This document shows, in pieces, positions 26,751 to 42,592 of a stretch of 64,000 bases of DNA. The first letter of the stretch is position 1. Every line of letters begins with the position of its first letter. The stretch comes from Bradyrhizobium lupini (GTDB lineage Bacteria > Pseudomonadota > Alphaproteobacteria > Rhizobiales > Xanthobacteraceae), in assembly GCF_040939785.1 (NCBI RefSeq), contig NZ_CP162553.1, forward strand, positions 1,426,001 through 1,490,000, in the 5' to 3' direction. The notes beneath the pieces are model-generated. The model saw only the letters and a list, made by a program, of their open reading frames with translations, was not told the DNA's origin and did not search any database. The translations under genes and the position numbers were made by a program.

Positions 26751-26774
26751 GCGCATCCTCCCATTTTATTGAGC

Positions 26775-26802
26775 AATATATAACAAGAATCAGATCACGC
26801 AA
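26775..26802 (-). promoter_or_regulatory. Candidate promoter of the paa operon
   Basis: On the minus strand TTGCGT (26802-26797) and TATATT (26780-26775) are separated by 16 bases, about 25 bases before the paaA start. The 73-base gap is strikingly AT-rich for this genome. The adjacent paaX gene suggests repression here in the absence of phenylacetyl-CoA. Confidence 0.45.
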
Positions 26803-26823
26803 GATATTTCTGTAACATAACAA

Positions 26824-27691
26824 TCAAGTCTCGAATCTCCTCTCCAGGAGTTTCCGCGCCAGCGGCAATGGCCCCTTTTCATTGGTCCCACGACCATCAA
26901 GCCATTGTTCCGATGGGACAAGCAGCGCGCGATAGATGTCGCCGCACAACGCACGGGCGGCCTTGCCTGGCCAGTTCGCCGGAAGCAGGCTTTCGGGCAG
27001 CAGCGGATCGCGCAGCACGACTCGGCGATAATGGTGGATCAGGAGGATGCGCGCCGTGAAGGCGTCGGCCTCGGACAAGTCGCTGCCGCGCGCGATCGCG
27101 GCGCGCAGCGGCTCGAACGTCTTCATGAACTTGAGATAGGCGTCCGCGGTGCGATCCAGTGGCCAGCTCGCACTGAGCAGCCGGCGACCACTGTCATCCT
27201 CGGCCGAGACCTCCAGACGGATGGCGCCCGCGGCCCTCGCCGGGCACTGGCACGCCTGACGGGGCGACCCACACGCCCGGCAGCGGGCTGCCGAAGCCGG
27301 CATTGCGGAGCGCCTCGCGCGAGGCATCGCGATCCTCGCCATTGCCGATCAGAAGCAGCTCGAAGCGCCCGGTCCAGTCGGATGGCGGCGGATCGTAGAT
27401 ATGGCGTGTCGCGGCCTCGAAGATCTGGCGGCCCTTGTCGGCCAAGCGGTAAAAACTATTGCGGCCGACCTTTTCGCGCGTCAGCCAGCCATCGGCAGCA
27501 AGCCGCGACATCGCGGTACGCACCACGCCGCTGTCGATGTCCAGGGTCTCGAAGAATTCCAGCAGCGTGCCGAGCCATACCGAACCGCCACGCGGCACGA
27601 TGGCATCACCGAATACCGTGATGACGATAGAGCCGGTGCGCGACGGCTCGCGCTTGAGCTGATCGATGATGCGGGACAACGGATGCGCCAT
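26824..27691 (-). pseudogene. paaX: PaaX-type phenylacetic acid degradation repressor, frameshifted
   Basis: Two overlapping frames together encode a normal PaaX of about 288 residues. The first runs from ATG 27691 (MAHPLSRIIDQLKREPSRTGS) through the winged-helix domain (GVVRTAMSRLAADGWLTREKVGR) to GVWVAPSGVPVPGE. The second resumes with AAGAIRLEVSAEDD and continues to the stop at 26824, through the conserved helical C-terminal part (LIHHYRRVVLRDPLLPESLLPANWPG). The break falls at the CCC run 27234-27236, where removing one base (GAGGGCC to GAGGCC on the coding strand) restores one frame. PaaX binds paa promoters and is released by phenylacetyl-CoA. The shift is either a sequencing error or a real loss that would derepress the paa operon. 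Confidence 0.85.
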
Positions 27692-27783
27692 GCGCGAGGC
27701 ATAGCGCGTTTGGTGCGGGCACGACAATGGACGGGTGCGACGCTCTTCTCCCTTGCCCCGTTCTTACGGAGAGAGGCAAAGAA

Positions 27784-28554
27784 TTACCGATGCGGATCGG
27801 GATAGACCACGCTGCGCCAGCCGCTGCGGTCGAAGGGCCGCCAGCTGCCTTCCTTCTGCGCAAGGCGATCAGCCACCGCGAAGACAGCGGCGGGATGATG
27901 GCCCATGCCGCAATGGCTGCTCTCGATCTCGATGCTCTCGGTCTGCGCGCCCGTCTTCTCCATGCAGCCCTGCCAGGCGCAGACGCCGTCGGTGCGGCTG
28001 AAGATCGCCGTGGTCGGCACCGGCGGCGGAACGGCGAGATCGCCGCCGAACTGCGGGTCGACCTCGTTGGACTTCCGGCCGCTCGCCCATTCATAGACTC
28101 GCCAGGCATTGGTCGAATGCGGATCGCCGGCAAAGGGGCTGCCGAGCGTGATCACCTGGCGTACGCGGTCGGGCATCATCTTGGCGAGCTGGCGCGCATA
28201 GAGACCGCCGAGGCTCCAGCCGACCAGGCTGATCTTGCGGCCGTGCCTGTCGCTGAGCTCCTGAACCAGATCCACCATCGCGTGCTGCACGCCCTCGCGC
28301 AGGCCATAGTTGCGGCCTTGGCGCCAGCCGCTCACCGCATAGCCCTTGCCGGACAGAAAGGTGCGCAGTGCACGCGTGGACCCGTCGGAGGCCACGAGGC
28401 CCGGCAGAACCAGCACCGGATGCCTATCGCCGCGCGGCGCGAGGCTGAGCAGCGGCAGCGCGCCGAGGAAGGCGCCGAACTCGTGGATCGCTCGCCCTTC
28501 CAGGAACATCAGGGTGCGAGACGGCGGGCTCAGCGTCTGGGCAGTAGCGGTCAT
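27784..28554 (-). CDS. Alpha/beta hydrolase, lipase-like
   Basis: A 256-residue alpha/beta hydrolase with the nucleophile motif SLVGWSLGGLYARQLAKMMPD near residue 115 (GWSLGG). An acid appears in FSRTDGVCAWQGC and a His in SSHCGMGHHPAAV near the C terminus. No signal peptide is seen. The ATG at 28554 is preceded by AGGGGA, and the open frame upstream is not used. The protein is closely similar to the gene at 41232-42032, sharing the segments VSLVGWSLGG, YAR and ITLGSPFA, so the two are paralogues. A lipid or polyester substrate is plausible given the PHA genes nearby. Confidence 0.82.
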   Translation of the reverse strand: MTATAQTLSPPSRTLMFLEGRAIHEFGAFLGALPLLSLAPRGDRHPVLVLPGLVASDGSTRALRTFLSGKGYAVSGWRQGRNYGLREGVQHAMVDLVQELSDRHGRKISLVGWSLGGLYARQLAKMMPDRVRQVITLGSPFAGDPHSTNAWRVYEWASGRKSNEVDPQFGGDLAVPPPVPTTAIFSRTDGVCAWQGCMEKTGAQTESIEIESSHCGMGHHPAAVFAVADRLAQKEGSWRPFDRSGWRSVVYPDPHR

Positions 28555-28755
28555 CAATGGTCCCCTTGGGAAAATTGCTGAAAAGGCCACCGGTTGTTTG
28601 CCGGCAGATGGGTATGGGATTCCAACACGCCGGCTTCTGGATCGTTCCGCAACGCAACATGAATCAGCTAGGCAGCGGGTTCCCGACATTCAAGCGGGAG
28701 ACACCCCGGGCCACAATAGGCCCGCGCGTTAATGCTGACGTCCGTGACGCAAAAG

Positions 28756-30042
28756 TCACAACAATCGAAGCAGGAATTCTACGGAGTAAAGCGCAAGACC
28801 CGCGAGCCCCCCGATCAGCGAGCCGTTGAAGCGGATGTATTGCAGGTCGCGGCCAATGTTGATTTCGATCAGCGAAATCAGCTGCGCCATGTCCCACGAC
28901 TTGACCTGGTCGGAGATGAAGGTCGAGACGCCGCTCTTCTGGTCCGCGACGAAACTGCGCAGCACCGCGACCAGCCCCTTGTTGATCTCGCCGCGCAGCT
29001 CGGCATCGCCCGCAAGCGCTTCGCCCGCCGCGACACACATTCCCGCGAGATGATGCTGCAGCACCTGCGTCTCGCCGCTTGCACTACGTTCGATGAAGGA
29101 CCGCGTATTGGCCCAGACGGTGCGGGCGAGATCGGCAAGCTCGGGACGCGCGAGCAGATCGCGCTTCAAGCCGTCGATGCGGTCGATATAGGCCTGGTCG
29201 GTGCCGAGCCGGTCGACGAAGCTCAGCACCATGCGATCGAACTCGCCGCGAAAAGGATGTTTGGGATCGCTGCGCACTTCATTGAAGAACGCGGTGGCGG
29301 AGGCCACGATCTTGTTCACCAGAAACTTGTCGGCGCGATAGAGCCTGAGCAAGGTCGGCAATTCCGCGCGCACCTTCTCGCGGATGATCGCCATCGTCTC
29401 GGTCTGGTTCAGCGTCTCGTGCATCACGCGCAGAAGATCGTCGAACAGGATCTGGTGCCGCCCTTCCGCGACGAAGCCGCGCAACGTGCCGGCCGCGAGC
29501 GGCGCCAGATCGACGGCCTGGAGCTGCGAGGACATGCGGCGGATGATGAAGGTCATCAGACCGGAGCTCTCGGTCGCGGAGACAGCCTCCGGCAGCAGGC
29601 GCAGCGCAAAGCGCGCGAGGTCATCGCTGCGCTTGCGATCGCGCAGCCAGTCGGCGACGAAGGAGCCGAAATCGATCTCCTTCAGCTTGGCCTCGACGGG
29701 AGCGGCCTCGAGGAAATGCACCTGGATGAACTCGCCGAGCTTGTCGGCGATACGGGCCTGGTTGCTCTGGATGATCGCGGTGTGTGGGATCGGCAGGCCG
29801 AGTGGACGCTTGAACAGCGCGACCACCGCATACCAGTCGGCGAGCCCGCCGATGGTCGCGGCTTCGGCGAAGGCCGCGATGAATCCGAACACGGGATGTA
29901 CGGGCAGCAGCCATTTCGCAACGACGAACAGGACAAGCGTCGAGCCCAGCACCAGCGTCGCCAGCGCTTTCACGCGGCGCAATTCGGCTGCGCGTTCGGC
30001 GTCGCCGGGAGTGTCGAAAGAGAAGGCGCCTGATGGAGTCAT
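28756..30042 (-). CDS. DUF445 family membrane protein
   Basis: A 428-residue protein with a hydrophobic start (VKALATLVLGSTLVLFVVAKWLLPVHPVFGFIAAFAEAATIGGLADWYAVVALFKRPLG), characteristic of DUF445 (YjiN) proteins. A long helical central region and a short C-terminal hydrophobic end (SLIGGLAGLALYSVEFLLRL) follow. GGLADWYAVVALFKRPLGLPIPHTAII is the most conserved block. The function is unknown in any species. The start is the ATG at 30042; a GTG one codon earlier is possible. Confidence 0.86.
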   Translation of the reverse strand: MTPSGAFSFDTPGDAERAAELRRVKALATLVLGSTLVLFVVAKWLLPVHPVFGFIAAFAEAATIGGLADWYAVVALFKRPLGLPIPHTAIIQSNQARIADKLGEFIQVHFLEAAPVEAKLKEIDFGSFVADWLRDRKRSDDLARFALRLLPEAVSATESSGLMTFIIRRMSSQLQAVDLAPLAAGTLRGFVAEGRHQILFDDLLRVMHETLNQTETMAIIREKVRAELPTLLRLYRADKFLVNKIVASATAFFNEVRSDPKHPFRGEFDRMVLSFVDRLGTDQAYIDRIDGLKRDLLARPELADLARTVWANTRSFIERSASGETQVLQHHLAGMCVAAGEALAGDAELRGEINKGLVAVLRSFVADQKSGVSTFISDQVKSWDMAQLISLIEINIGRDLQYIRFNGSLIGGLAGLALYSVEFLLRLL

Positions 30043-30059
30043 CACAGCATCACCCTATC

Positions 30060-30206: not shown

Positions 30207-30662
30207 TCAGGCGGTCTTGTTGTAGACCTTGGCAAAATTGTCCTGAGCGGACTTCGCACCGTTAGCGGCGAGCTTGCCGAAATAGTCGGTGGTCGCCTTG
30301 GCGCGCGAGACGAACGCTTCGCCGCGGGCGCGGAGCAGGCCGGACTGGATCTCGACAGCTTCGCTGAACGACTTGGCGGACGCGAGCTTGTCGATGCCTG
30401 CGAAGAATGCCTCGGCGTCCTCGTAGATCGCCTGCTGGATGTTGCGGCTGATCTTGCCGGCTTCGGTGACGGTCTCGGTCACCGCGTTTTCGACGGCGGC
30501 GGTCACGCGCTCAGAGCCAGCGAACACCTCGGCAGCACGGTCCTTGGCAGTGTTGGCGGACTTCTTGACGAACTCGCGGGCGGCCTCGGGAACTTCCAGG
30601 TTCTGGATGTTCTTGAACGCGTCCTTGAAGCCTTCGAAAGCGGTGTTGGTTTCGGTGGTCAT
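30207..30662 (-). CDS. phaP: Phasin (PHA granule-associated protein)
   Basis: A 151-residue small helical protein of the Phasin_2 type. It has GFKDAFKNIQNLEVPEAAREFVKKSANTAKDRAAEVFAGSERVTAAVENA in the first half and SAKSFSEAVEIQSGLLRARGEAFVSRAKATTDYFGKLA in the second. Phasins coat PHA granules and control their size. The ATG at 30662 is preceded by GGAGAGA; earlier in-frame codons are in the leader. A clear terminator follows, so it is a monocistronic gene. The upstream gap holds a palindrome that may be the site of a PHA regulator. The class III-type PHA synthase genes lie 0.8-2.2 kb away, making a PHA gene group. Confidence 0.88.
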   Translation of the reverse strand: MTTETNTAFEGFKDAFKNIQNLEVPEAAREFVKKSANTAKDRAAEVFAGSERVTAAVENAVTETVTEAGKISRNIQQAIYEDAEAFFAGIDKLASAKSFSEAVEIQSGLLRARGEAFVSRAKATTDYFGKLAANGAKSAQDNFAKVYNKTA

Positions 30663-30756
30663 TGGGGGTCTCTCCATCCTCATTGGTTGAGCTATGGGCT
30701 CACCCCGTCCGGTTTTGGCCCGGGGCACGGCTTATATGCCATAGTTAATTGTGCGA

Positions 30757-30774
30757 TGCAATATCCATATTGCA
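30757..30774. promoter_or_regulatory. Perfect palindrome upstream of phasin
   Basis: TGCAATAT-CC-ATATTGCA is a perfect inverted repeat 95 bases before the phasin ATG. TGC-containing symmetric sites are known for the PHA regulator PhaR in alphaproteobacteria, which represses phasin genes. This palindrome is a good candidate for that site, but no experiment or regulator gene in the window proves it. Confidence 0.5.
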
Positions 30775-30864: not shown

Positions 30865-31457
30865 TCAATGCTGGACGGCGCCAAGCAGCCCATAGGCCTC
30901 CATCTGGGCCTGGACCTGCGCGATGTTGTGCCCGAGCACCACGATATCGTGGGTCTTGCCGTCGACGTCGCGAACATGGTCGCGCAGCAGTGCCTCGGCC
31001 TTGAAGCCAAGGCTCTCGAACAGCGTGATCGCCGCCTGCTGATCGACCGTCATTTGGACCGAGAGCTTCTCGAGGCCGGCCCCGAGCGCTAGGGCGAAGG
31101 TCTCCTGCGACAGCGTCCTTCCCACCCCTTCCCGCGCACGTCGAGCGAAACCACCATTCGGATCTCGCCGACATGAGGCGACCAGGAGTGCGGATCGCGC
31201 ACCAGCGTGCCGCAGCCGACGACCGTGCCGTCCCTGACCGCGAGCAGGCTCGTGATCGCGCCGCGCGCGATCTCCTTGACCCAGGCGGAGAGCACCTTCG
31301 GCTCACTGATGTTGCGCGGCAGGAACAACAGGTCGTGGGTCGGCAGGCCCTTGCCGAAGGCGAGCACCGCGGCTTCGTCCGCCGGGGACATCAGGCGGAT
31401 CTCGATATCGCCCGCGTCCGTCTTCACATGGCGCGGATAGGAACGCTGCTCACTCAT
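30865..31457 (-). pseudogene. GNAT-family N-acetyltransferase, frameshifted
   Basis: Two frames together encode one GNAT protein of about 197 residues. The first (ATG 31457, MSEQRSYPRHVKTD) runs to HVGEIRMVVSLDVRGKG. The second continues with GRTLSQETFALALGAGLEKL and ends in TLFESLGFKAEALLRDHVRDVDGKTHD, the usual C-terminal half with the acetyl-CoA-binding and ESLGF-type motifs. The break is at the CCCC run 31125-31128; adding one base would rejoin the frames. The ATG overlaps the phaC stop (ATGA), so this acetyltransferase is translationally coupled to the PHA synthase. Its substrate and its role in PHA metabolism are unknown. Confidence 0.8.
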
Positions 31458-32536
31458 GTCGATCTCTTCCCCAGCCAGGAATCCAGTTTCGGCCACAGCC
31501 GCTTCACCGCATTGGCGCCGGCGACCAGCGAGACGTGACCGCCCTTCAGCATCACCTCCTCCTTGTCCTCCGATCCGATCTTGGCGATCAGGTGCTTTGC
31601 CGCCTCATACGGCACGATGTGGTCATGCTCGGCGACCGCATGCAGGAACGGCACCTTGATGTCCTCGAGCTTCGCCGCACGGCCGCCGACCGACATGGTG
31701 TCGTTGAACAGCTTGTTGTCCCACATCAGGTCCTTGGTGATGGTGCGGAAATATTCGCCGGCCAGCGGCAGCGTGTCGGTCGCCCAGCGGTCGAACATCC
31801 GGTAGGATTTGACGAACTCGTCGTTCCAGATGTTTTCCCAGAGCTGGATCTGGCTGACGGTGCGGGAGGCCGGGCGCAGCATCTCGAACGACGACAGGAT
31901 CATCTCGGGCGGCACGTTGCCGACGCTGTCGACGAGGCGATCGACGTCGAAATAGCGACGGTCGGAGAAGTTCGAGAACAGCTTCATCTCGCGAAAGTCG
32001 ATCGGCGTGGTGAAGCAGATCAAATTCTTCATCGGCCCATCCTTGTGGATCGAGCCGTAGAGCAGCGACAGCACGCCGCCGAAGCAATAGCCGATGACGG
32101 AGACGTCCTGTTCGCCGGAATCCTGCTGCACGCGGCGGATGCAGTCCGGGATGAAGTCGAGGACATAATCCTCCATGCGGAGGCTCTTCTCCTCCGGCCG
32201 TGGCGCGCTCCAGTCGAGCATGTAGACGTCGTAGCCGCGCTTCAACAGGAACTCGATGAAACTCTGGCCGGGCACGAGGTCGAGAATGTAACCGCGATTG
32301 GTGGTCGCCATCACGATCAAAATCGGAATTCGATAGATCTCGTCGGACATCGGTCGATAGTGGTAGAGGCTCATCGTGCCGCGTGAATGCAGCACGTCCT
32401 TCGGCGTCGACCCGAGCGTGGGGCCGGACGTCGAGAAATATTCGACGCCCTTGATGCTTCTCTGGATGGCGCGTTGCACCTCGGACTGGATGCGCTCCGG
32501 GATCCCTGCGAAGTCTAATCCGGCGGGTGCATTCAT
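31454..32536 (-). CDS. phaC: Class III-type poly(3-hydroxyalkanoate) synthase subunit PhaC
   Basis: A 360-residue synthase. The lipase-like box is GYCFGG with nucleophile Cys151, and the acid and His lie in AEHDHIVPYEAAKHLI and KGGHVSLVAGANAVK near the end, the Cys-Asp-His set of PHA synthases. Length is typical of the small class III/IV PhaC, which needs a partner subunit, whereas class I synthases are about 590 residues. The partner gene directly upstream overlaps the phaC start by 4 bases. The enzyme polymerises 3-hydroxyacyl-CoA into polyester. Rhizobia usually also have a class I synthase, so this is probably an additional one. Confidence 0.9.
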   Translation of the reverse strand: MNAPAGLDFAGIPERIQSEVQRAIQRSIKGVEYFSTSGPTLGSTPKDVLHSRGTMSLYHYRPMSDEIYRIPILIVMATTNRGYILDLVPGQSFIEFLLKRGYDVYMLDWSAPRPEEKSLRMEDYVLDFIPDCIRRVQQDSGEQDVSVIGYCFGGVLSLLYGSIHKDGPMKNLICFTTPIDFREMKLFSNFSDRRYFDVDRLVDSVGNVPPEMILSSFEMLRPASRTVSQIQLWENIWNDEFVKSYRMFDRWATDTLPLAGEYFRTITKDLMWDNKLFNDTMSVGGRAAKLEDIKVPFLHAVAEHDHIVPYEAAKHLIAKIGSEDKEEVMLKGGHVSLVAGANAVKRLWPKLDSWLGKRST

Positions 32537-32916
32537 GTCTTCTCTCCGCCTTCAGACGGCGGGCGCTTGGTGCGCGGCGGGCGCAATGCAGTATCGGAGC
32601 CCTGAGAAATTCCGGAACTTGCCGCCATCTGGCTCAGCATCGACTTGATCTCACCGATCTGTCCTTCGATGGACTGTAGCCGTTCCGCAAGGCCGGTGAC
32701 CTGGTCCCGGCTCGGCAGATTCATGGAGACCAGATATTTCTCCATGAGGTCGCCGAGCTGCTTCTGAGCACCTGCAGCAACGCCGCCGGCCCGGTTCACG
32801 GCTTGCGAAAACTCGGGCGACGACATGGCCTGATTGGCGAAGGAGTTGAACCCCTTCTCCATCTCGCCAACCATCTTCTGCCACATGGCAATGGGGTCGT
32901 TGCTTTTGTCGGTCAT
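32533..32916 (-). CDS. phaE: PhaE-like PHA synthase partner subunit
   Basis: A 127-residue protein, MTDKSNDPIAMWQKMVGEMEKGFNSFANQAMSS then helical stretches with LPSRDQVTGLAERLQSIEGQIGEIKSML and a polar C terminus. The LPSRDQVTGLAERL segment and the DPIAMWQKMVGEMEKGFNSF start recall the conserved core of PhaE/PhaR-type subunits and phasin-like regulators that accompany class III/IV synthases. It is much shorter than the 40-kDa PhaE of Allochromatium, so the family link is inferred. The ATG at 32916 follows AGGAGG, and its stop overlaps the phaC start (ATGA). Confidence 0.75.
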   Translation of the reverse strand: MTDKSNDPIAMWQKMVGEMEKGFNSFANQAMSSPEFSQAVNRAGGVAAGAQKQLGDLMEKYLVSMNLPSRDQVTGLAERLQSIEGQIGEIKSMLSQMAASSGISQGSDTALRPPRTKRPPSEGGEKT

Positions 32917-33086
32917 CGGCGTCCTCCTGAAAGCGAGAGCTTCGATGCCCTTCCTTTTTCGCCATACCACACCGTTGCGCGGTGCCGGTCAACCGGCAAG
33001 CAGCGGGTCCGGTGTCGCGGACGCGGCTTCATTGCGAGGGGAAACCGTGCGATACAGCATTAATCAAAAGCCGAGGGAACGCACCC

Positions 33087-34001
33087 GTGAACGCCTATCA
33101 TCCGCCGCAAACCGTCCACGCCAACGGCATCGACATCTGTTACGAGACTTTCGGCAACGACAGTGCCGAGCCGCTGCTTCTGATCATGGGGTTAGGCGCC
33201 CAGATGATCCACTGGGACGATGCGTTCTGTGAGCAGCTCGCCGCGCACGGCTTTCGCGTCATCCGGTTCGACAATCGCGACATCGGCAAGTCGAGCCATC
33301 TCACAGGCGGCAAGCGTCTGACGCCGCTCGAGCTGTTGAAGCTCCGGTTTCTCAGGATTCCTGTGGCCGCAACCTACAAGCTGATCGACATGGCAAAAGA
33401 CACTGTCGGGCTGATGGATGCGCTCGGCGTCAAGTCGGCGCACCTGGTCGGGGCGTCCATGGGCGGCATGATTGCGCAGGAAGTGACGTTGTCGTTTCCC
33501 GAGCGGGTGCGCTCGCTCACCTCGATCATGTCGACGACCGGCAATCCGCGCCTGCCGCCCCCGACACGCGAGGCCGCCGCGATGCTGATGGCGCCGCCGC
33601 CGCGCAGCAAGGAGGAGTTCATCGTCCGCTACGGCCAGACCTGGAACGTGTTGCGGGCCGGGTCCTTCCCGGAGGAAGAGGCGCTCGATCCCGGTCGTGC
33701 CGAGCGCGTGTTCGCGCGCGGGCTCAATCCGGCCGGTGTCGGCCGGCAGCTCCGCGCGGTGCTCGCCTCGGGTAGCCGCAAGGAGCGGCTGCATGGCGTC
33801 AAGACGCCGACACTCGTCATCCACGGCACCGTCGATCCGCTGGTCCGCCCCGAGGGCGGCAGGGACACGGCAGAGTCAATTCCGGGGGCCAAGCTGCTGA
33901 TGATCGACGGCATGGGCCACGCGCTGCCGATGCGGTTCTGGCCGGACATCATCGACGCCATCGCCAAGCACGCCCATGGCGCGGAGGTGCAGGCGGCGTA
34001 G
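33087..34001 (+). CDS. Alpha/beta hydrolase, GTG start
   Basis: A 304-residue alpha/beta hydrolase. The oxyanion-hole region is LLLIMGLGAQMIHWDD, the nucleophile box GASMGGM near residue 122 (HLVGASMGGMIAQEV), the acid in IHGTVDPLVRPEGG and the His in IDGMGHALPMRFWPD. The GTG start follows GAGGGA; a longer open frame upstream has no supporting ribosome site. It is divergent from the PHA synthase operon. The substrate is unknown; the family includes aromatic polyketide esterases and lactonases. Confidence 0.86.
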   Translation: MNAYHPPQTVHANGIDICYETFGNDSAEPLLLIMGLGAQMIHWDDAFCEQLAAHGFRVIRFDNRDIGKSSHLTGGKRLTPLELLKLRFLRIPVAATYKLIDMAKDTVGLMDALGVKSAHLVGASMGGMIAQEVTLSFPERVRSLTSIMSTTGNPRLPPPTREAAAMLMAPPPRSKEEFIVRYGQTWNVLRAGSFPEEEALDPGRAERVFARGLNPAGVGRQLRAVLASGSRKERLHGVKTPTLVIHGTVDPLVRPEGGRDTAESIPGAKLLMIDGMGHALPMRFWPDIIDAIAKHAHGAEVQAA

Positions 34002-34150: not shown

Positions 34151-34615
34151 ATGCATCTCATCGTCCGGTCGGCCGCAATCGTCGCTGCTTCAGTCCTCAC
34201 GCTGTCCCTCGCCAGCGGCGCCGCGATGGCGGGTGGCGCGCAAGAAGAAGCCAATCGCAAAACTGTCCTTGCGTTCTACGAGAAGGGGCTCAACCAAAAG
34301 GACGCCGATGCAGCCCTCGCCTATGTCGGCGACCGCTACGTCCAGCACAATCCAAACGCGGCCGATGGTCCGGACGGATTCCGAAAGTTCATTGGCTTCC
34401 TGCGCGAGAAATTCCCGAACTCGCACAGCGAGATCAAGCGCAGCTTCGTGGATGGCGACTACGTCATCCTGCACGTTCACGCGGTTCGCGAGCCCGGCAG
34501 CAGGGGCAATGCGATCGTCGACATCTTCAAGCTGGAGAACGGCAAGGTTGTCGAACACTGGGACGTCGTGCAACCGATCCCGGAAAATCCGGCGAACAAC
34601 AACACGATGTTCTGA
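34151..34615 (+). CDS. Exported SnoaL/NTF2-like protein
   Basis: A 154-residue protein. Residues 1-28 are a signal peptide (SAAIVAASVLTLSLASGAAMAGG). The mature part is a SnoaL-like NTF2-fold domain, with LAFYEKGLNQKDADAALAYVGDRYVQHNPNAADGPDGFRKFIGFLREKFPN and a C-terminal NAIVDIFKLENGKVVEHWDVVQPIPENPANNNTMF. The VEHWDVVQ stretch is the usual family end. Function is unknown; relatives bind small hydrophobic molecules, some as cyclases or isomerases. It converges with the spermidine-synthase-like gene. Confidence 0.82.
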   Translation: MHLIVRSAAIVAASVLTLSLASGAAMAGGAQEEANRKTVLAFYEKGLNQKDADAALAYVGDRYVQHNPNAADGPDGFRKFIGFLREKFPNSHSEIKRSFVDGDYVILHVHAVREPGSRGNAIVDIFKLENGKVVEHWDVVQPIPENPANNNTMF

Positions 34616-34644: not shown

Positions 34645-35319
34645 CTAGCTCTTCCTCGCCAGCCAGATCACGTGACGTGCGCCACCGCCTCTTCCGGTGG
34701 CGCGGATATTGACTTCGTTGACTTCGAATCCGGCGCTCCCGAGCCGCTTGGTGAAGGCCGGGTTGGGCCCCGAGGACCAGACCGCGAGCACGCCGCCCGT
34801 CCGCAGCGCCGTCTTCGCCGCCTTCAACCCACTCGCATTGTAGAGCGCATCATTGCCCTTCCGGGTCAGCCCTTCCGGCCCGTTATCGACGTCGAGGAGG
34901 ATGGCATCGAATGCCGACCGCTGCGCCCGGATGATTTCGCCAACGTCGGTTTCCCGGATGCTCACCCTGACGTCATCGAGACTGTCACCGAACACCTGCG
35001 CCATCGGACCCCGCGCCCAGGCGACCACCGCCGGCACGAGCTCGGAGACAACGATCTTCGCCTTGCTTCCGAGCACGGTCAGCGCCGCACGCAGCGTAAA
35101 ACCCATGCCCAGGCCCCCGATGAGGACGACAGGTTTTGCGACCGTCTCGATCTGCTTCGCCGCGAGCGTGGCGAGCGCGGCCTCCGAGCCCGACAGGCGG
35201 TTGTTCATCAGCTCGTTGGTGCCGAGCTTGATTGAGAACTCCTTGCCTCGCCGCATCAGGCGAAGCTCTTCATCGGAGCCGGGGATTTTGGCGGTATCGA
35301 TCTTTTCCCAGGGAATCAT
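34645..35319 (-). CDS. Spermidine synthase-like methyltransferase-fold protein
   Basis: A 224-residue protein with the polyamine synthase/SAM-binding fold. The nucleotide motif is VVLIGGLGMGFTLRAALTVLG near residue 64, with acidic VVSELVPAVVAWARG and DAILLDVDNGPEGLTRKGNDALYN further on. It lacks the N-terminal beta hairpin of true spermidine synthases and so belongs to the group of spermidine-synthase-like proteins of unknown acceptor. It starts 30 bases after the CYP102 gene, the last member of the lipid operon that begins at 42288, and might modify a product of that pathway or be a passenger. Confidence 0.8.
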   Translation of the reverse strand: MIPWEKIDTAKIPGSDEELRLMRRGKEFSIKLGTNELMNNRLSGSEAALATLAAKQIETVAKPVVLIGGLGMGFTLRAALTVLGSKAKIVVSELVPAVVAWARGPMAQVFGDSLDDVRVSIRETDVGEIIRAQRSAFDAILLDVDNGPEGLTRKGNDALYNASGLKAAKTALRTGGVLAVWSSGPNPAFTKRLGSAGFEVNEVNIRATGRGGGARHVIWLARKS

Positions 35320-35349
35320 GCGAGAGCTTTAGCACGTCCGGCTGCCGGG

Positions 35350-38300
35350 TTATCCACCCGCCCATACGTCCAGAACATACCGGTTCTTTGCACCCATCTC
35401 CTCGATCCAGCGGGCAGCCGTGGCGGCATCGCTGCCGCTCTTCTCGCGATGGATCGCGACCAGCGCCGCCTTCACGTCGGGCTCCATCTTGCTGCCGTCG
35501 CCACAGACATAGACGATCGCGCCCTGCTCGATCAGCGGCCAGATCTTGTCCTTCTGCGCAGCGAGGACGTGCTGCACATAGGTCTTTGGCCCCTCCGCGC
35601 GCGAGAACGCCGTGAACAGCTCGGTGATGCCGCTCGCCGCCAGCGCCTTCAGCTCGTCCGCGTAGAGAAAATCCTGATCGGGATGACGGCAGCCGAAAAA
35701 CAGCATGGCCGGACCGAGCGCGGCGCCCTTGACCTTGCGCGCGGCGCGCTCCTGGAGGAAGCCGCGGAACGGCGCCAGTCCCGTGCCCGGGCCGATCATG
35801 ACGATCGGCACGGATGGATCGTCCGGGAGCCGGAAGCCGGCCTTGGTCTCACGCACGATTGCATGGATAACGTCGCCCGCGCGTCGATTGGCGAGATAGT
35901 TCGAGCAGATACCCTTGTACGTGCCGCGGCCGGAGGCGGCCGGTCCTTCAACCACGCCGACCGTGACGCTGCAACGAACCGGGTCGACCGACGGCGAAGA
36001 CGAGATCGAGTAATAGCGCGGCGCCAGCAGGGAGAGCATTTCCAGATAGACGTGGAACGGCAATTCACAGGCCGGATATTCGAGCAGCAGATCGAACACC
36101 GATTTTCGCCTCGCCAGAATCTCGGTGCGATAACGCTCGAGTGTTTCAGCCTCCTCGCCAACGAAGGCCAGCAGTTTTGGTTTCGTGACCGGACAACGCG
36201 TATGCTCGGTAATGATCTGAATCTGCTTCCGTGTCGCCACTTGCTGGAGCTCGACGAACTCGCTGAGCAGGCGGCCCACTGACACGGCATCGCCGACCGG
36301 CAATTGCGCGCGGCGGCCTTCGGCGACCTGAAGCCTGATCTGGTCGGCCGGCAGGAAGCCGAAGCGACGGGCAACCGAATCCACCAGCGTCGGATCGTTG
36401 CGCGGGACCACACTCAGATGATCGCCGACGCGGTACGTGATGTTGGACGGCAGCTGCACCTCGATGTGGCGCGTCGAGCGCTCCGACGGATTGGAACCGG
36501 CCTTGTTCTGAAGCTCGTCATTGACCAGCACCTTCATGGCCACCGCGCCGCCCTGGGCGACGATGGTGTTGACGGCGGTCACCGCGACCGGCTCGATCGC
36601 GTAGAGCGGATCATCCTCCGCGGTACGGGTGAAATTCCAGTCGATGCCGAATTCCTTGGTCGCGACCTGGGCGGCCGCCGGGAACCATTTCTGAAACTGG
36701 CCGTCGAGATCGCTGCGCGCATCGCCTTCGCCACGCGGATAGACCGCGCGCGCACCATGCGCCGATAATTGTTCATCGATGAAGCGCGGTACCGATTGAT
36801 AGGTCGCGGCCCAGTCGCTGTTGCCGCAGCCGAACACGGCGTAGCGCACATCGGCAAACGCATCCTTCGGCAGCTCGTCGCCGAGCCATTTGACAAATTG
36901 TGTCGCATTGTCCGGCGGCGCGCCGTTATAGGAGGCGCAGATGATCAGGACGCCGCCCTCCCGCGGCAGCTTGCCGACGTAATCGTCGAGCGGCCCCAAA
37001 TGCACGGCAAAGCCGTTGATCTCGGCAAGGTCGGCCATCCGCGTCGCCAGCTCTTCGGCGGTGCCGAGATTGGAGCCGTAAAGTACGAGCATCGGCGTGT
37101 TGTGGCCGGGGCGCGCGGTGGGCTGGCGCGGTGCCTTCGGCGCCGACGACACCGCTACAGGTCCACCATAGGCGCCGCGCTCGCGATCGGCGCGCGGACG
37201 GACCTTGATCTTGAAGCCTTCCGGCTTCATCGTGAGCGTTTCCTTCAGATGCATCTGGTAGCGCTGGTGGTCGACCAGCTTGAAGCGCTGGAGGATCATG
37301 CCGAGCGCGAGCGCGGCCTCGTGCATGGCGAAGCCGCGGCCGATGCAGGCGCGCTGGCCGTTGCCGAACGGCTTCCAGGCATTGATCGGCCGTTTGGCTT
37401 CCGCCTCCCGGCTGAAATTCTCCGGATCGAACGCATCCGGGTTGGGACCCCAGACAGAGGGATCGCGATGCAGCGCGGTCACCAGGATGGTGGTGAACGT
37501 GCCCTTCCTGAGCTTGTACTTGCCGCCGCCGATAGCCTCGTCGTTCAGTGGGGAGATGCCATAGGCCGGCGCCGGCGGCCATAGCCGCAGCGCCTCCTTG
37601 AGGATCTGCGTGATGTAAGTGAGCTGCGTGACCTGTTGATAGGTCGGACGCACGTCGACATTGGGACCGAGGACGCGGTCGACCTCGTCATAGGCTTTTT
37701 TGAGAATGTCGGGGTGCTTGAGCAACGCATAGAGCGCGCAGGACAACAGGCCGCTGGTGGTCTCGTGGCCTGCGATCAGGAACGTGTTGATCTGGTAGCG
37801 GATGTTGACGTCGTCGAGCTGCTCGCCGGTCGAGCGATCGACGCCCGTCATCATCGCCGCAAGCATATCCTTCTTGTCGTCGGTCGCCTCGCCTCCCTTG
37901 CGGCGCTCCGCAATGATCTCGTCGACCATCCTGTTCATGAAGTCGACATCTTCAGCCATGGTCTTGCGGCGCTTCTGCATCCAGAGCTGCTCGAACGGCA
38001 GGCCGCGCGTCATCATGATGGTTTCGAGCGAGCGCACCAGCGACTCGACGAAGGGGTGGTAATCGCGCCGGTAGAACGAATTGAAGCGGTAGTCGAAGCC
38101 GCACAGGCCGATCGTATCCAGCGTCAGCGCCGTCATGTCGTGGACGACGTCGATCTCGTCGTCGGCGTTGAGCCGTTCCCATTTGCCCACGAGCTGCTCC
38201 GCGATGTCGACCATGCTCGGGTGATAGGACTGCATGGCGCGGTTGCCGAAAGGCTGGAGCAGGATGTTGTGCGCCTTGCTCCAGTTCGGCTCCCTGGTAT

Positions 38301-38583
38301 CGGCCGTGAACAAGCCGTCGCCGCCGACCGCGCGCACCCGCCGCAGGGCACCGCGCACCGTCTTGTCGAAACGCTTCTCGTCGGAGAGCTCGTCGACGAG
38401 ATCGTGGCCGGAGACGACCACGATCGGCGAGCCCATCATGTCGAGCCAGAAGATCGGCCCCAGCTCCTTGGCAAGCCGGGTCAGATGCTGCACCGGTGCG
38501 GCCGAATCCAGCGACAGCATGTTGCCGACCACCGGCTTGGTCGGCGGCTGCGGGATCGGGTCCAGACGGTTCTTCGATGACAT
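35350..38583 (-). CDS. Self-sufficient cytochrome P450 / NADPH-P450 reductase (CYP102 type)
   Basis: A 1077-residue fusion like P450 BM3. Residues 1-470 form the P450 domain. F92 aligns with the BM3 Phe87 over the heme, the I-helix is AGHETT at 271-276, ExxR is E330-R333, and heme Cys413 lies in FGNGQRACIGRGF. A linker leads to an FMN domain (LVLYGSNLGTAEELATRMAD). FAD and NADPH domains follow (RYYSISSSP, GVVEGPAASGRGTYKGICSNYL, MIGPGTGLAPFRGFLQERA, YVCGDGSKMEPDV). Members hydroxylate medium- and long-chain fatty acids near the omega end. The ATG at 38583 is preferred to an upstream in-frame TTG. It follows an epoxide hydrolase and a wax ester synthase in one operon. Confidence 0.95.
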   Translation of the reverse strand: MSSKNRLDPIPQPPTKPVVGNMLSLDSAAPVQHLTRLAKELGPIFWLDMMGSPIVVVSGHDLVDELSDEKRFDKTVRGALRRVRAVGGDGLFTADTREPNWSKAHNILLQPFGNRAMQSYHPSMVDIAEQLVGKWERLNADDEIDVVHDMTALTLDTIGLCGFDYRFNSFYRRDYHPFVESLVRSLETIMMTRGLPFEQLWMQKRRKTMAEDVDFMNRMVDEIIAERRKGGEATDDKKDMLAAMMTGVDRSTGEQLDDVNIRYQINTFLIAGHETTSGLLSCALYALLKHPDILKKAYDEVDRVLGPNVDVRPTYQQVTQLTYITQILKEALRLWPPAPAYGISPLNDEAIGGGKYKLRKGTFTTILVTALHRDPSVWGPNPDAFDPENFSREAEAKRPINAWKPFGNGQRACIGRGFAMHEAALALGMILQRFKLVDHQRYQMHLKETLTMKPEGFKIKVRPRADRERGAYGGPVAVSSAPKAPRQPTARPGHNTPMLVLYGSNLGTAEELATRMADLAEINGFAVHLGPLDDYVGKLPREGGVLIICASYNGAPPDNATQFVKWLGDELPKDAFADVRYAVFGCGNSDWAATYQSVPRFIDEQLSAHGARAVYPRGEGDARSDLDGQFQKWFPAAAQVATKEFGIDWNFTRTAEDDPLYAIEPVAVTAVNTIVAQGGAVAMKVLVNDELQNKAGSNPSERSTRHIEVQLPSNITYRVGDHLSVVPRNDPTLVDSVARRFGFLPADQIRLQVAEGRRAQLPVGDAVSVGRLLSEFVELQQVATRKQIQIITEHTRCPVTKPKLLAFVGEEAETLERYRTEILARRKSVFDLLLEYPACELPFHVYLEMLSLLAPRYYSISSSPSVDPVRCSVTVGVVEGPAASGRGTYKGICSNYLANRRAGDVIHAIVRETKAGFRLPDDPSVPIVMIGPGTGLAPFRGFLQERAARKVKGAALGPAMLFFGCRHPDQDFLYADELKALAASGITELFTAFSRAEGPKTYVQHVLAAQKDKIWPLIEQGAIVYVCGDGSKMEPDVKAALVAIHREKSGSDAATAARWIEEMGAKNRYVLDVWAGG

Positions 38584-38628
38584 TAAAAGTGCTTCCCCTG
38601 CCTCGGTATTCAACGCCGTCGTTGCGAG

Positions 38629-39624
38629 CTAACCAAACCGCCTTCTACGCCATTCGATCAGCTTGGCGCTGACTTCCTCCGGCTTCTCCTGCTGCGTCCA
38701 ATGGCCGCTGTCGCGGACCAGATATTTTTCCAGATCGGGGATCAGCTTGTCCATGCCATCGGCGGAAGACGGCGGCAACACCGCGTCGTTCTCGGCCATG
38801 ATCATCAGCGACGGCACGCGCACCGTATGATCGAGCCCTTCGGCGCGCATCCAGTTGCGGGACATATTGCGGTACCAGTTGATGCCGCCGGTGAAGCCCG
38901 TCCTGGTGAAATTGTCCACGAACACCTTTTTCTCTTCGGGCGACAGGATCGGCGTGCGAGGATCGTGCTTCGCATCGTAGCCCGCGATCATCTGCGGAAA
39001 TGCCAGGTTCAGTCGCGGGGAGGCACCGACACCCGCGACGACTTCCTCCGCCGGAGCATCTGCCGGGCGCGCTACGGGCTGGCGCATGAAGGCATCGAAG
39101 GTCTGCTCGACGCGACTGCCAAAGATCTTGTCGGGCTCACGCGCGGGATCCTGGAACTGCACGATATACATCTTTTCGCCGAAGCGCGCGCGCAGGAGTT
39201 CGATCGGATCGGCCCAGGCGCGGTTGGTATGAGGCGTATTGATGCCGACCACGCCGGCGACCCGGTCGATGTGCCGGAGTGGCATCTGCCAGACGATAAA
39301 ACCGCCCCAGTCATGGCCGACGAAGATCGCCTTGTCGATCTGAAGATGGTCGAGCAGGCCGATCAGATCGCCGGTCAGGTGCTCGATGTCGTAGTCCTCG
39401 ACCGGCTCTGGCCGGTCGGTCGCGCCGTAGCCGCGCTGGTCCGGCGCGATCACGCGGATGCCGGCCTCGCTCAGCGCCTTGATCTGGTGGCGCCAGGAAA
39501 ATGCGAGTTCGGGCCAGCCATGGCACAGCACCATCGGCGGCTTGTCTGTGACCGGGCCCGCCTCGTAATAGCCCATGCGGATTCCGTTCGTCTGTACGAA
39601 CTTGAGCGGTGGCATTTCAATCAT
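38629..39624 (-). CDS. Epoxide hydrolase-like alpha/beta hydrolase
   Basis: A 331-residue alpha/beta hydrolase of the epoxide hydrolase group. The HGWP motif of the oxyanion hole is near residue 35 (VLCHGWPELAFSW), the nucleophile is Asp105 in VGHDWGGFIVW, and the His lies in RDSGHWTQQEKPEEV near residue 310. Such enzymes open epoxides to diols, and P450-made fatty acid epoxides would be a suitable substrate. The gene sits between the CYP102 fusion (45-base gap) and the wax ester synthase (10-base gap), which fits a shared pathway, though the actual substrate is inferred. Confidence 0.88.
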   Translation of the reverse strand: MIEMPPLKFVQTNGIRMGYYEAGPVTDKPPMVLCHGWPELAFSWRHQIKALSEAGIRVIAPDQRGYGATDRPEPVEDYDIEHLTGDLIGLLDHLQIDKAIFVGHDWGGFIVWQMPLRHIDRVAGVVGINTPHTNRAWADPIELLRARFGEKMYIVQFQDPAREPDKIFGSRVEQTFDAFMRQPVARPADAPAEEVVAGVGASPRLNLAFPQMIAGYDAKHDPRTPILSPEEKKVFVDNFTRTGFTGGINWYRNMSRNWMRAEGLDHTVRVPSLMIMAENDAVLPPSSADGMDKLIPDLEKYLVRDSGHWTQQEKPEEVSAKLIEWRRRRFG

Positions 39625-39634
39625 CGGAACATTC

Positions 39635-41185
39635 CTACTCAGCGGCGCCCTTTATGTCCGCCGCGGGCGAAGCATAGGCAGCCTCGAGCGCGGCGAATTC
39701 TTCCGGCAGCATGTCGCACATCACCTGCACGTGCGGAATGATGTTGGCGCCGACGATGAAGCCGAAATCGAGCTGGTCGCGATAGCTCTGCACGGTGATG
39801 TTGAGCGCCTGTCCGTGCGTCGAGATCGATACCGGGAAGATGTGCAACAGCTCCGCGCCCGCGGCGTAGAGCGTCTGCCGCGGCCCCGGCACGTTGGACA
39901 CCGTAATGTTCGCAGCCGGCGGCAACACATTCGACAAGTCGGAGCGGCTGTAGAGCAGCGCCATGATCTGCACGACAATCGGCGCGCCCAGCATCGAGAT
40001 ATTGGAGATCTGCGGCATCAGAGCCCGCAGTGGATGCGACATCTCCTTGGACTTGGTCGATTGCGCGATAATGGCTTCCAGGCGTGCCTTGGGATCGTCG
40101 ATGTTGGTTGCGATAGAGCAGATCATGCCGAACACCTGGTTGTTGGCGTCGGTGTTGCCCTCCTCGCGCAGCGAGATCGGTACGGCAGCGGTCAAGGACT
40201 TCGCCGGCAGCGTTCCATGTTGCTGCAGGTAGCGCCGGACCACCCCGGAAGCGAGCGCCAGCACGACGTCGTTGAGTTTGCCGCCGGCCTGCTTGGCCAG
40301 CGCCTTGGATCGCGACAGCGAAATCGAGACACCGGCGAAGCTGCGCTCGGACGAGATCGATTTGTTGAGCATGGTCGGCGGCGAGACCATGCTGGCGAGG
40401 CTCTCGCGCGATTTTGGATCGGATATCTTGCCGAGCACGTCCGAGACGCTCTTGACCATGGTTGGGATGTTGCCGGCAAAGCGCACCGCACTCTCGATCT
40501 GGTACATCGCATTGTCGAACAGGATCGAACCGATATCGCTCTTGCCGGTGCGTGGCAGCTGCAGATTCTTCGCGGCCGCCGATGGATCGAGCGGCTGGGT
40601 GAAAAGCTGCTGGTAGGAATCGACCAGGTTCGCTGCGATGTCGCGCGGCTCCTGCCCGGGCTTCGCTCCCGCGGTCGGCGGATCGACCTTCCGCGGGATC
40701 GGCGAGATGTCGTAGATCATGTTGGTCAGCGCCGCACCGGCGCCGCCGTCGATGGCGGCATGATGCATCTTGGAATAGAGCCCGACCTCGTTGTCCTTCA
40801 TGCCCTCGAACACGTAGAACTCCCAGAGCGGGCGGGCACGGTTCAAGAGCTTGGCGTGCATCCAGCCCACGATGCGTTCGAGCGTAGCGCGGTCGCGCGG
40901 CTGCGGCAGGCTGGCGCGGAAGATGTGACGGTCAATGTCGAACTGATCGTCCTCGATCCAGGAGGGATGATCGATATCGAGCGGCGCCTTCTCCAGCCGC
41001 GCTTTGAGGATCGGCGCGATGTGCAGGCGCGAGACGATCATCGCCTTGAAATCTTCGAAGAAGTCGCCCTTGTAGTCGTCCGGCAGACGAAAGATCGCCA
41101 TGCTCCCGACATGCATCGGCATTTCCGGCGTTTCCAGATAGAGAAACGACGCGTCCAGCGACGACAGCTTCTTACCGTCAGCCAT
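39635..41185 (-). CDS. Wax ester synthase / diacylglycerol O-acyltransferase (WS/DGAT)
   Basis: A 516-residue acyltransferase. The catalytic HHxxxDG motif is HHAAIDG at residues 141-147. LSSLDASFLYLETPEMPMHVGSMAIF at the N terminus and NVPGPRQTLYAAGAELLHIFPVSISTHGQALNITVQSYRDQLDFG near the C terminus are the conserved WS/DGAT blocks. It joins acyl-CoA to fatty alcohol or diacylglycerol, making neutral lipid. The ATG at 41185 follows GGGAGGG; the upstream open frame is not used. In an alphaproteobacterium that stores PHA the presence of this enzyme next to a fatty acid hydroxylase is notable. Confidence 0.92.
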   Translation of the reverse strand: MADGKKLSSLDASFLYLETPEMPMHVGSMAIFRLPDDYKGDFFEDFKAMIVSRLHIAPILKARLEKAPLDIDHPSWIEDDQFDIDRHIFRASLPQPRDRATLERIVGWMHAKLLNRARPLWEFYVFEGMKDNEVGLYSKMHHAAIDGGAGAALTNMIYDISPIPRKVDPPTAGAKPGQEPRDIAANLVDSYQQLFTQPLDPSAAAKNLQLPRTGKSDIGSILFDNAMYQIESAVRFAGNIPTMVKSVSDVLGKISDPKSRESLASMVSPPTMLNKSISSERSFAGVSISLSRSKALAKQAGGKLNDVVLALASGVVRRYLQQHGTLPAKSLTAAVPISLREEGNTDANNQVFGMICSIATNIDDPKARLEAIIAQSTKSKEMSHPLRALMPQISNISMLGAPIVVQIMALLYSRSDLSNVLPPAANITVSNVPGPRQTLYAAGAELLHIFPVSISTHGQALNITVQSYRDQLDFGFIVGANIIPHVQVMCDMLPEEFAALEAAYASPAADIKGAAE

Positions 41186-41231
41186 AGTTCCCTCCCGAGT
41201 ATTTGACGGGCGCCTTAGGCGGCGCTTCTCG

Positions 41232-42032
41232 TCAGGCCGATACTGCCTGTTCCGGCGGGGCATATGCAATGGCAAACGGCCCTGCCCTGTCAAATGGCCA
41301 GAACTCTCCCTCCGGTTGCGCAAGGCGGTCCGCCACGGCCCACAGCGCCGCGGGATTCACCCCAAGCCCGATATGGCTCGCCAGGTGCACCTCGATGTTC
41401 TCGGCACGGTCGGAGGGACGCAGCAGGCAGGTCCGCCAGTTCACAATCCCGTCGGCGCGCGAATAGATCGACGTCGCCGGCACCGGAAGATCGCCGGCGA
41501 TCGCCACGCGCAGCTCGGCGAAATCCTCGACACGCTCGCCGGACATCATCTCGTAGAGCCGCGTCGCATTGGTCGCCCGTATGTCATTGGCAAAAGGGCT
41601 GCCGAGCGTGATGGCATTGCGGACCATGTCGGGCGCCTGGAGCGCGAGATCGCGCGCATAGACGCCGCCGAGACTCCATCCGACCAGGCTGACCTTGCGG
41701 CCGCTCGCAGCATGGATTTCGGCTAGACGGGCGCGCAACGAATCCCGCATCCGTCCGAACCCGCCGAAATTTCGGCCCATCCGCCAGGCATGTGCCTCAT
41801 AGCCAAGCTCGCTGAGATAGCGCCGCATCGGCGCCATCGAGAGATCGCTGGCGAGGAAGCCAGGCAGCGCCAGCACCGGATGGCCGTCGCCTTTTGGCGC
41901 CCGCATCAGGACCGGCGACAGCAGCAGGCTGGCGTTGAGTTCGAGCAACCCACGGGCTTCGGCGAGCAGCAAAGCAAGGCCCGGCGGACGAAGCCGGCCT
42001 GAGGTCTGCGGCCCGTCCGGACCGGGCGGCAT
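41232..42032 (-). CDS. Alpha/beta hydrolase, lipase-like (paralogue of 27784-28554)
   Basis: A 266-residue alpha/beta hydrolase with VSLVGWSLGGVYARDLALQ as the nucleophile segment, ITLGSPFANDIRATNATRLYEMM following, and a His in LASHIGLGVNPAALWAV. It closely resembles the hydrolase at 27784-28554 in motif and length, so they are likely paralogues, each next to storage-lipid genes. The ATG overlaps the stop of the DUF6489-like gene by one base (TAATG), showing translational coupling in the operon with the wax ester synthase. Confidence 0.83.
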   Translation of the reverse strand: MPPGPDGPQTSGRLRPPGLALLLAEARGLLELNASLLLSPVLMRAPKGDGHPVLALPGFLASDLSMAPMRRYLSELGYEAHAWRMGRNFGGFGRMRDSLRARLAEIHAASGRKVSLVGWSLGGVYARDLALQAPDMVRNAITLGSPFANDIRATNATRLYEMMSGERVEDFAELRVAIAGDLPVPATSIYSRADGIVNWRTCLLRPSDRAENIEVHLASHIGLGVNPAALWAVADRLAQPEGEFWPFDRAGPFAIAYAPPEQAVSA

Positions 42033-42288
42033 TATTTCTTCTTATCGCCGCTGCGCGTGCCGCCGAGGCCGGCCATGGTGACGAACATGTCCTGAAATCG
42101 CTCGGCAAGCTTTGGATCGAAGGTGAACCAGCTCTGGATCAGCGATTCCGGCGAGACCTTGTCGATGTTGCTCAGAACCTGCTGCTGCAGCTTGTCCATG
42201 ACCGCCGTCTGCATTGGTGCCAGGTCGGGCAATCCGATGAACTGACGGGCTTCGAGGGGGTACAGTCGATTTCGATGTTAACTTTCAT
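42032..42288 (-). pseudogene. DUF6489-like small protein, frameshifted
   Basis: Starting at ATG 42288, after a GGAGG site, the sequence reads MKVNIEIDCTP and then goes out of frame. A shift by one base at the GGGGG run 42256-42260 gives LEARQFIGLPDLAPMQTAVMDKL and continues to the stop at 42032, for a product of about 85 residues ending in LAERFQDMFVTMAGLGGTRSGDKKK. This is a conserved small rhizobial family of unknown function, which I recall as DUF6489. The run would need one more base, so a sequencing error is likely. It heads the lipid operon. Confidence 0.75.
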
Positions 42289-42475
42289 GTCCCCTCCAGA
42301 TGAGATTCGAGCGGCCTACTGCAGTATCGCCGCGAGGCGGTGTACAACGCAAGCGACCTGAAGCCGGTGGCGGCGCTCCGGCTTCCCCGATCGGCGGATA
42401 TGGTCAATCAAAATCGGCCGCGGCCGCGCCCGTCCTCCCGTCATGCCGGTCAGCATTGCTGCACAGCGGTGCAAC

Positions 42476-42492
42476 TTGGCGCGTTCCTTGCT
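42476..42492 (+). promoter_or_regulatory. Candidate sigma-54 promoter upstream of dppA1
   Basis: TTGGCGCG-TTCC-TTGCT matches the sigma-54 consensus TTGGCACG-N4-TTGCT at 16 of 17 counted positions. The invariant GG and GC doublets are 10 bases apart. It lies about 100 bases before the dppA1 ATG, in the only gap longer than 300 bases in the window (42289-42592); the rest of that gap holds nothing else I can recognise. No enhancer-binding protein gene is adjacent. Confidence 0.45.
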
Positions 42493-42592
42493 GGAATGGC
42501 GCTTGCACGGGTCGAGAACTCTGGGCAACATGGTTCGATCAGCCCCGCCGAACAATCAAAAATGACGGTGCGGGCGAGTGGAGAGGTCAAGA

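Follow-up and report, generated by a model that had tools for sequence, protein, structure and literature searches.

A conserved locus linking a CYP102 P450, an epoxide hydrolase and a wax ester synthase to polyhydroxyalkanoate granule genes in Bradyrhizobium lupini suggests storage of oxidised fatty acids

Introduction

The locus studied here lies on the minus strand of a 64,000-nucleotide stretch of the Bradyrhizobium lupini genome (NCBI RefSeq assembly GCF_040939785.1, contig NZ_CP162553.1, positions 1,426,001 to 1,490,000; hereafter the window) and begins with an operon encoding, among others, a CYP102-type P450-reductase fusion, an epoxide hydrolase and a wax ester synthase/diacylglycerol acyltransferase (WS/DGAT). 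Its closest described counterparts are the polyhydroxyalkanoate (PHA) granule genes of the soybean symbiont B. diazoefficiens, which include phaC4 (blr2885), phaP5 (blr2887) and the PhaR regulon. The phaP5 transcript was increased 129-fold in a phaR mutant, its promoter bound PhaR, and a PhaR site is listed for it (PMC6201568). These papers treat the genes as polyhydroxybutyrate (PHB) genes, and the passages concerned leave the neighbouring CYP102 operon unmentioned. A CYP102 of the same organism has been named CYP102A6 (PMC9281120). An expression study of B. diazoefficiens nodules places two genes of this region, blr2881 (Table 4) and blr2882 (Figure 8 legend), in the post-symbiotic set, that of nodule senescence (PMC6321122); we infer that blr2882 corresponds to the window-type CYP102, because of the gene order and the single copy of the gene.

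The proximity of WS/DGAT and PHA metabolism genes has already been published for Alphaproteobacteria (cluster II: Ahrensia and Sulfitobacter; PMC10351704). There, as in the window, WS/DGAT adjoins PHA genes, whereas the main text of that paper, figures and supplements aside, uses neither 'cytochrome P450' nor 'epoxide'. Within the accessible text of the open-licence literature, supplements excluded, we found no paper connecting CYP102 or epoxide hydrolase with PHA genes. The occurrence of both enzymes together with WS/DGAT beside PHA granule genes suggests an undescribed storage lipid of oxidised fatty acids.

Organization of the locus

The genome is a single contig of 7.8 Mb and of Bradyrhizobium type. 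A first-pass annotation of the window had described six tightly packed minus-strand genes; their order and coordinates were reproduced here, with successive gaps of -1 (TAATG), 46, 10, 45 (15 with a TTG start) and 30 bases. The locus continues beyond them on the same strand with genes for a small PhaE/PhaR-like subunit, the PHA synthase PhaC4, an acetyltransferase, a phasin, a DUF445 protein and a second lipase, and the membership of the six genes in a storage-granule locus is well supported by linkage. The first operon comprises:

42340-42351, minus strand: PhaR-like site in the leader, 63 bases 5' of the DUF6489 ATG; degenerate, with two mismatches to the published consensus
42032-42288, minus strand: DUF6489 gene (ATG at 42288, stop ending at 42032), frame broken near the start in this assembly
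41232-42032, minus strand: lipase-like alpha/beta hydrolase with a GWSLG box
39635-41185, minus strand: WS/DGAT (TIGR02946, HHxxxDG)
38629-39624, minus strand: epoxide hydrolase of the alpha/beta type; lid Gln156 replaces one Tyr
35350-38583 (ATG) or to 38613 (TTG start), minus strand: CYP102-type P450-reductase fusion
34645-35319, minus strand: SpeE-like, distant spermidine-synthase-like protein with a GGLGMG stretch, outside the conserved core

The genes between the two halves and the downstream half are:

34151-34615, plus strand: SnoaL-like protein between the halves, not core (40 of 80 named loci)
32982-34001, plus strand: convergent alpha/beta hydrolase, likewise lying between the halves but conserved, with a copy in 73 of 80 named loci
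32533-32970, minus strand: small subunit resembling PhaE or the synthase subunit PhaR, profiles below cut-off
31454-32536, minus strand: divergent PHA synthase PhaC4, ortholog of USDA110 blr2885 (GYCFGG box; both blr2885 primers exact)
30865-31457, minus strand: GNAT acetyltransferase, split over two frames
30749-30760, minus strand: predicted PhaR-binding site, identical to the site published for phaP5
30207-30728, minus strand: phasin PhaP5, identified as the ortholog of USDA110 blr2887 from gene order and from the identical PhaR site
28756-30045, minus strand: DUF445 membrane-type protein
27784-28689, minus strand: lipase-like alpha/beta hydrolase, the second of the locus, sharing 48% identity with the first

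Both published RT-PCR (reverse transcription PCR) primers for USDA110 blr2885 (phbC1/phaC4) matched the window synthase gene exactly, and none of eight primers for four other synthase paralogs matched it, one of them giving a three-mismatch match elsewhere in the window. The synthase gene overlaps the small-subunit gene and the acetyltransferase gene by 4 bases each. The pair shares with class III and class IV PHA synthases (PhaC with PhaE or PhaR) the two-gene arrangement, the Cys-Asp-His residues and TIGR01836 as best model, but differs from them in that both subunits score below the curated cut-offs: 320 bits against 365.3 for PhaC4, and 28.5 against 148.4 (TIGR02132) and 18.5 against 25.7 (PF09712) for the small subunit. 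The catalytic Cys was present in all 88 rows, the Asp in 58 aligned rows and the His in all 50 aligned rows. The phasin exceeded its cut-offs with both TIGR01985 (122.3 bits, cut-off 99.7) and Phasin_2, PF09361 (45.5 bits, cut-off 24.9).

Conservation of the locus

The recurrence of the gene order beyond one strain, which the first-pass annotation had set as a check, was found both in 80 named loci and across the family; the order is not due to chance. These loci are the top 80 among 219 matches from a single scan and nearly all come from Bradyrhizobium, so they are not independent; a gene was counted as present when tblastn matched it at more than 45% identity. DUF6489, lipase, WS/DGAT and epoxide hydrolase were each found in 80 of 80, CYP102 in 78, the PHA synthase with its small partner in 71 and the SpeE-like gene in 69; both CYP102 absences, and several others, fall where a contig or stretch ends. 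The locus L046 belongs to a record titled Frankia sp. RB7 whose contig has the Bradyrhizobium locus at 96% identity, and is probably mislabelled or contaminated. Within the genus, a WS/DGAT ortholog occurred in 57 of 60 sampled genomes, the window genome counted.

Searches of 149 family genomes with each protein gave full-length WS/DGAT orthologs (74% identity or more) in 24 genomes (plus one contig-end fragment, in G088) and full-length CYP102 orthologs (74% or more) in 28. All 24 genomes with WS/DGAT also had CYP102, and in 23 of them the two genes were 1.0-3.1 kb apart on one contig, the remaining pair being split over contigs. Of 22 fetched family regions with a close CYP102 ortholog, 21 had the epoxide hydrolase gene next to it. 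The first-pass annotation had regarded the six genes as one unit, which does not hold for all of them: the SpeE-like gene, present in one of 19 fetched regions from other genera of the family, is not core, and DUF6489 and lipase are lacking in some genera. At order level, any WS/DGAT at E 1e-20 was found in 13 of 249 genomes; CYP102 relatives at E 1e-120 occurred in 28 of 397 genomes of the order and 4 of 385 of the class.

CYP102 proteins of about 58-63% identity occur in an independent arrangement in nine further genomes, here called the second group (G085, which belongs to the family, together with members of the order-level families f20 and f24 and the class-level family f118). An acetyltransferase gene lies beside CYP102 in eight of the nine, and phasins, DUF445, lipase and WS/DGAT (about 38-40% identity) are near it in six. 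In these six (G085, G407, G270, G872, G801 and G426, the last a partial match at about 18 kb) WS/DGAT is within about 20 kb of CYP102. Some of the loci also hold an acyl-CoA synthetase and a PHA synthase, arranged differently; the G407 synthase resembles class II and scores below the class II cut-off. The two arrangements are tied together by L150 and L153, in which a FadD-like acyl-CoA synthetase, 67-69% identical to that of f20, lies within the operon between epoxide hydrolase and CYP102. In a quick, midpoint-rooted tree of 46 CYP102 proteins, with G426 and G088 left out, the window type and the second group formed one supported group of 36 rows and ten distant proteins fell outside. Nine distant CYP102 loci gave no match to WS/DGAT or phasin, phasin not having been a query for four of them.

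WS/DGAT, lipase, phasin and acyl-CoA synthetase also occur together in the paralogous loci L157, L170, L176 and L182, which have no CYP102. L157 (positions 8166-14891, Bradyrhizobium genome G025) carries two further WS/DGAT genes, 54% and 38% identical, with the lipase, phasin and acyl-CoA synthetase between them and no CYP102 in the stretch.

PhaR-type sites

The site 5' of the window phasin gene is identical in 12 of 12 bases to that published for phaP5. Chance alone would give roughly one match to the consensus per window; the weight of this site rests on its identity and its place. Of 23 fetched regions of the main clade, 12 include a phasin gene, and each of these carries, no more than 180 bases upstream of that gene, a site with one mismatch or none (10 exact).

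To compare loci, consensus sites were counted against simulated sequences from second-order Markov chains. Six loci with CYP102, WS/DGAT and phasin (114.7 kb) held 17 sites against 1.56 expected, and three loci of the same clade without WS/DGAT nearby held 7 against 1.14, numbers that none of 200 simulations reached in either case; the grouping of the loci was made when sites in some were already known, and the control groups guard against this only in part. In these control groups, nine distant CYP102 loci had no site (2.13 expected) and five WS/DGAT loci without CYP102 in the stretch had 3 (1.75 expected). The window cluster together with L197 had 2 sites against 0.67 expected, a count reached in 35 of 200 simulations. 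Among the 24 sites of the first two groups, 22 stood at a distance of 64-166 bases upstream of a gene for acetyltransferase, phasin, DUF445 or synthetase (gene starts here, in the main-clade regions and in the regions outside the genus being tblastn match starts), so the sites flank CYP102 and do not precede it; of the other two, one lies just inside a phasin match and one near no scored gene.

PhaR control of the first operon, containing CYP102 and WS/DGAT, appeared to be only partly supported. A site with at most one mismatch was present in 53 of 80 first-operon leaders (21 exact), versus 19 of 400 shuffles, and the best site stood at -63/-64 in 71 of 80. Such sites were also seen upstream of CYP102 (11 of 77), the binding-protein gene SBP (4 of 79) and epoxide hydrolase (2 of 79), and none was found before the convergent hydrolase (0/70), WS/DGAT (0/79) or SpeE-like gene (0/69). 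Outside the genus, the lipase gene is preceded in four regions by sites that all have one mismatch; exact sites were found in three regions, located between the phasin gene and a divergent WS/DGAT gene and closer to the phasin.

In the same leader, positions 42440-42510 are nearly invariant in ten aligned leaders and face the divergent gene for a peptide-type binding protein at 42578. On the plus strand, this segment resembles the consensus of a sigma-54 promoter.

Enzymes of the first operon

Among the names proposed by the first-pass annotation, those of WS/DGAT, CYP102 and epoxide hydrolase were upheld, and those of the SpeE-like protein and the lipase are weaker than it stated, since family cut-offs were not reached. 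WS/DGAT, whose start at 41185 is the first ATG and lies downstream of GGGAGGGAAC, scored 408.7 bits with TIGR02946 (cut-off 309.95) and kept HHxxxDG in all 105 rows; no other match to it was found in the window genome at E 0.001.

CYP102 is a single chain with P450, flavodoxin, FAD and NAD domains and the only full-length copy in the genome (next best match 129 bits versus 2512). Like P450 BM3 and other CYP102A enzymes, it matches a solved CYP102 structure over its full length, heme and reductase domains included (about 1029 bits), and retains Phe102 as well as the Cys ligand, ExxR and the I-helix Thr (AGHETT), the last three kept in all 112 rows; unlike them, its gene sits in a lipid-granule locus. 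It may oxidise fatty acids.

The epoxide hydrolase has the Asp nucleophile, the Asp-His pair and the HGxP motif, and its best solved relatives are mycobacterial EphA and mammalian soluble epoxide hydrolase. It shares with these the fold, nucleophile Asp105, acid Asp280, base His308 and lid Tyr251, but the other lid tyrosine is Gln156 in the window enzyme, a change conserved in all 103 rows.

The lipase, an alpha/beta hydrolase with its GWSLG box conserved in all 103 aligned rows, reached no profile family cut-off. The best 120 of its 7972 homologous matches were all at least 80% identical and indicated nothing on function, and no claim is built on its structure model of modest confidence (mean pLDDT 70.4). 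The SpeE-like protein was below every curated cut-off (Pfam 22.3 versus 22.9 bits; NCBIfam 32.1 versus 472 at best); a role as polyamine enzyme was rejected on these scores and on its absence from the core of the locus. A search of the window genome for a fatty acyl-CoA reductase (PF07993, best 53.3 bits) used a profile too loose to decide, as it also responded in 14 of 14 controls, and a missing reductase was set aside as support for hydroxy-acid acceptors.

The DUF6489 gene is in the place that the first-pass annotation gave it, with a broken frame in this assembly. Its open rear part, the only part scored, gave 18.3 bits with PF20099 (cut-off 23.6). The break sits at a run of C that has lost one base relative to the relatives compared; a script judged the frame intact in 76 of 80 relatives, flagged it in one and did not locate it in three, and the start motif was found in 79. 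An assembly error is likely here, because the acetyltransferase gene further down also spans two frames; single-base errors probably account for the split frames of DUF6489, the acetyltransferase (30865-31496) and a PaaX-like gene (26824-27727), which is likewise divided over two frames. On the same strand after the second lipase, at 24193-27727, lies an apparent phenylacetate degradation (paa) operon, recognised by eye.

Discussion

The explanation that we favour, at about even odds, is that the six genes open a longer one-strand storage-granule locus in which oxidised acyl chains are made into stored esters. CYP102 would add oxygen to acyl chains, by hydroxylation or by epoxidation at a double bond, and the epoxide hydrolase would convert the epoxides to diols. 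The new hydroxyls would then be acyl acceptors for WS/DGAT, so that a fatty alcohol would not be needed. Hydroxy-acids activated to CoA esters may also feed PhaC4 and its small partner; in two relatives, a long-chain acyl-CoA synthetase gene lies between hydrolase and CYP102. The ester or polyester would be held in granules under a coat of PhaP5, the phasin encoded downstream of the PhaR site, and be mobilised by the lipases. The sequences themselves establish the gene content, order and conservation, the catalytic residues, the identity of phaC4 and phaP5 and the PhaR-type sites; from these we infer the substrates, the product and the joint pathway of the two halves. The first-pass annotation had proposed oxidation of fatty acids and storage or secretion of their esters. 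Oxidation and ester formation fit the gene identities and order; the extent given to the locus was too short, and the PHA synthase pair, the phasin and the PhaR-type sites were overlooked. With these in the longer locus, storage in granules is favoured over secretion. The estolide-like product suggested there may be one outcome of such a pathway.

Several observations weigh against this explanation. First, BM3 binds the carboxylate of fatty acids through Arg47 and Tyr51. Equivalents of these residues are absent from the window CYP102, where the region reads MMGSPIVVV with Ser62 and Val66 in their places by hand placement; therefore, free fatty acid may not be its substrate. Together with Gln156 of the epoxide hydrolase, this altered clamp hints that the substrate differs from free fatty acid or that the mechanism has changed. 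Second, the linkage is not uniform. CYP102 occurs without WS/DGAT in four of the 28 family genomes (two with DUF6489 and hydrolase, one with DUF6489, lipase and hydrolase, one with DUF6489 and lipase), three of the nine second-group genomes (G841, G843 and G446) lack WS/DGAT within about 7.5-9 kb of CYP102, and the epoxide hydrolase gene does not adjoin CYP102 outside the main family clade. Third, the window copy of the first-operon PhaR-type site is degenerate, no exact site was found within 350 bases upstream of the first gene of the operon outside the genus, and blr2880-2883 are not named in the main text of two PhaR papers. Finally, a study of mannitol-grown cells detected PhaC4 in a membrane-enriched fraction and described it as truncated, with no activity in PHB metabolism (PMC5996035); for microaerobic conditions, another lists it with the genes whose expression was poor or absent (PMC10888616).

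A bolder version of the favoured explanation, which we consider unlikely, is that the product is a storage polyester unlike PHB, wax ester or triacylglycerol, for which CYP102 and epoxide hydrolase would supply hydroxy- and dihydroxy-C16/C18 chains. WS/DGAT and PhaC4 would join these to give estolides, or a polyester of long chains, within granules that PhaP5 coats. PhaC4 would then have seemed inactive because it was tested for PHB. Mutants of phaC have reportedly been described earlier.

Among the alternatives, an unlikely one is a clearance pathway, in which unsaturated fatty acids and oxylipins from the plant or from the cell's own membranes, for example in senescing nodules, would be taken up and oxidised, the toxic epoxides opened and the products parked by WS/DGAT, storage being the sink. 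The presence of blr2881 and blr2882 in the post-symbiotic set (PMC6321122) and the nearly constant position of the epoxide hydrolase gene beside CYP102 in the family agree with this, whereas the steady linkage to phasin, PHA synthase and PhaR-type sites persists even where the epoxide hydrolase is not nearby. It is also improbable, in our view, that the locus serves ordinary storage of neutral lipid and PHB, with WS/DGAT making plain triacylglycerol or wax ester, and CYP102 and epoxide hydrolase performing a separate task as neighbours by shared ancestry. Such a role would match cluster II, published without mention of a P450 in its main text (PMC10351704), and the four paralogous loci without CYP102. 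However, the co-occurrence of WS/DGAT with CYP102 in 24 of 24 family genomes, and the linkage of CYP102 again in the second arrangement, argue against it. Tailoring of envelope lipids, in which the enzymes would produce the hydroxylated acyl chains found in the outer membrane, or attach esters to them, and not a storage lipid, seems very unlikely: Bradyrhizobium lipid A has hydroxylated very-long chains with further ester-linked groups, which counts for it, but no lipid A or very-long-chain acyl gene is among the genes profiled in the locus, the phasin and PHA synthase point inward, and lipid A tailoring was set aside for want of supporting neighbours.

If oxidised acyl chains are indeed made into stored esters by this locus, the alphaproteobacterial relatives of the widely used P450 BM3 would gain a natural role, and two orphan PHA genes of the soybean symbiont, phaC4 and phaP5, would be explained. 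It would also mean that bacteria can make a storage ester from oxidised fatty acids.

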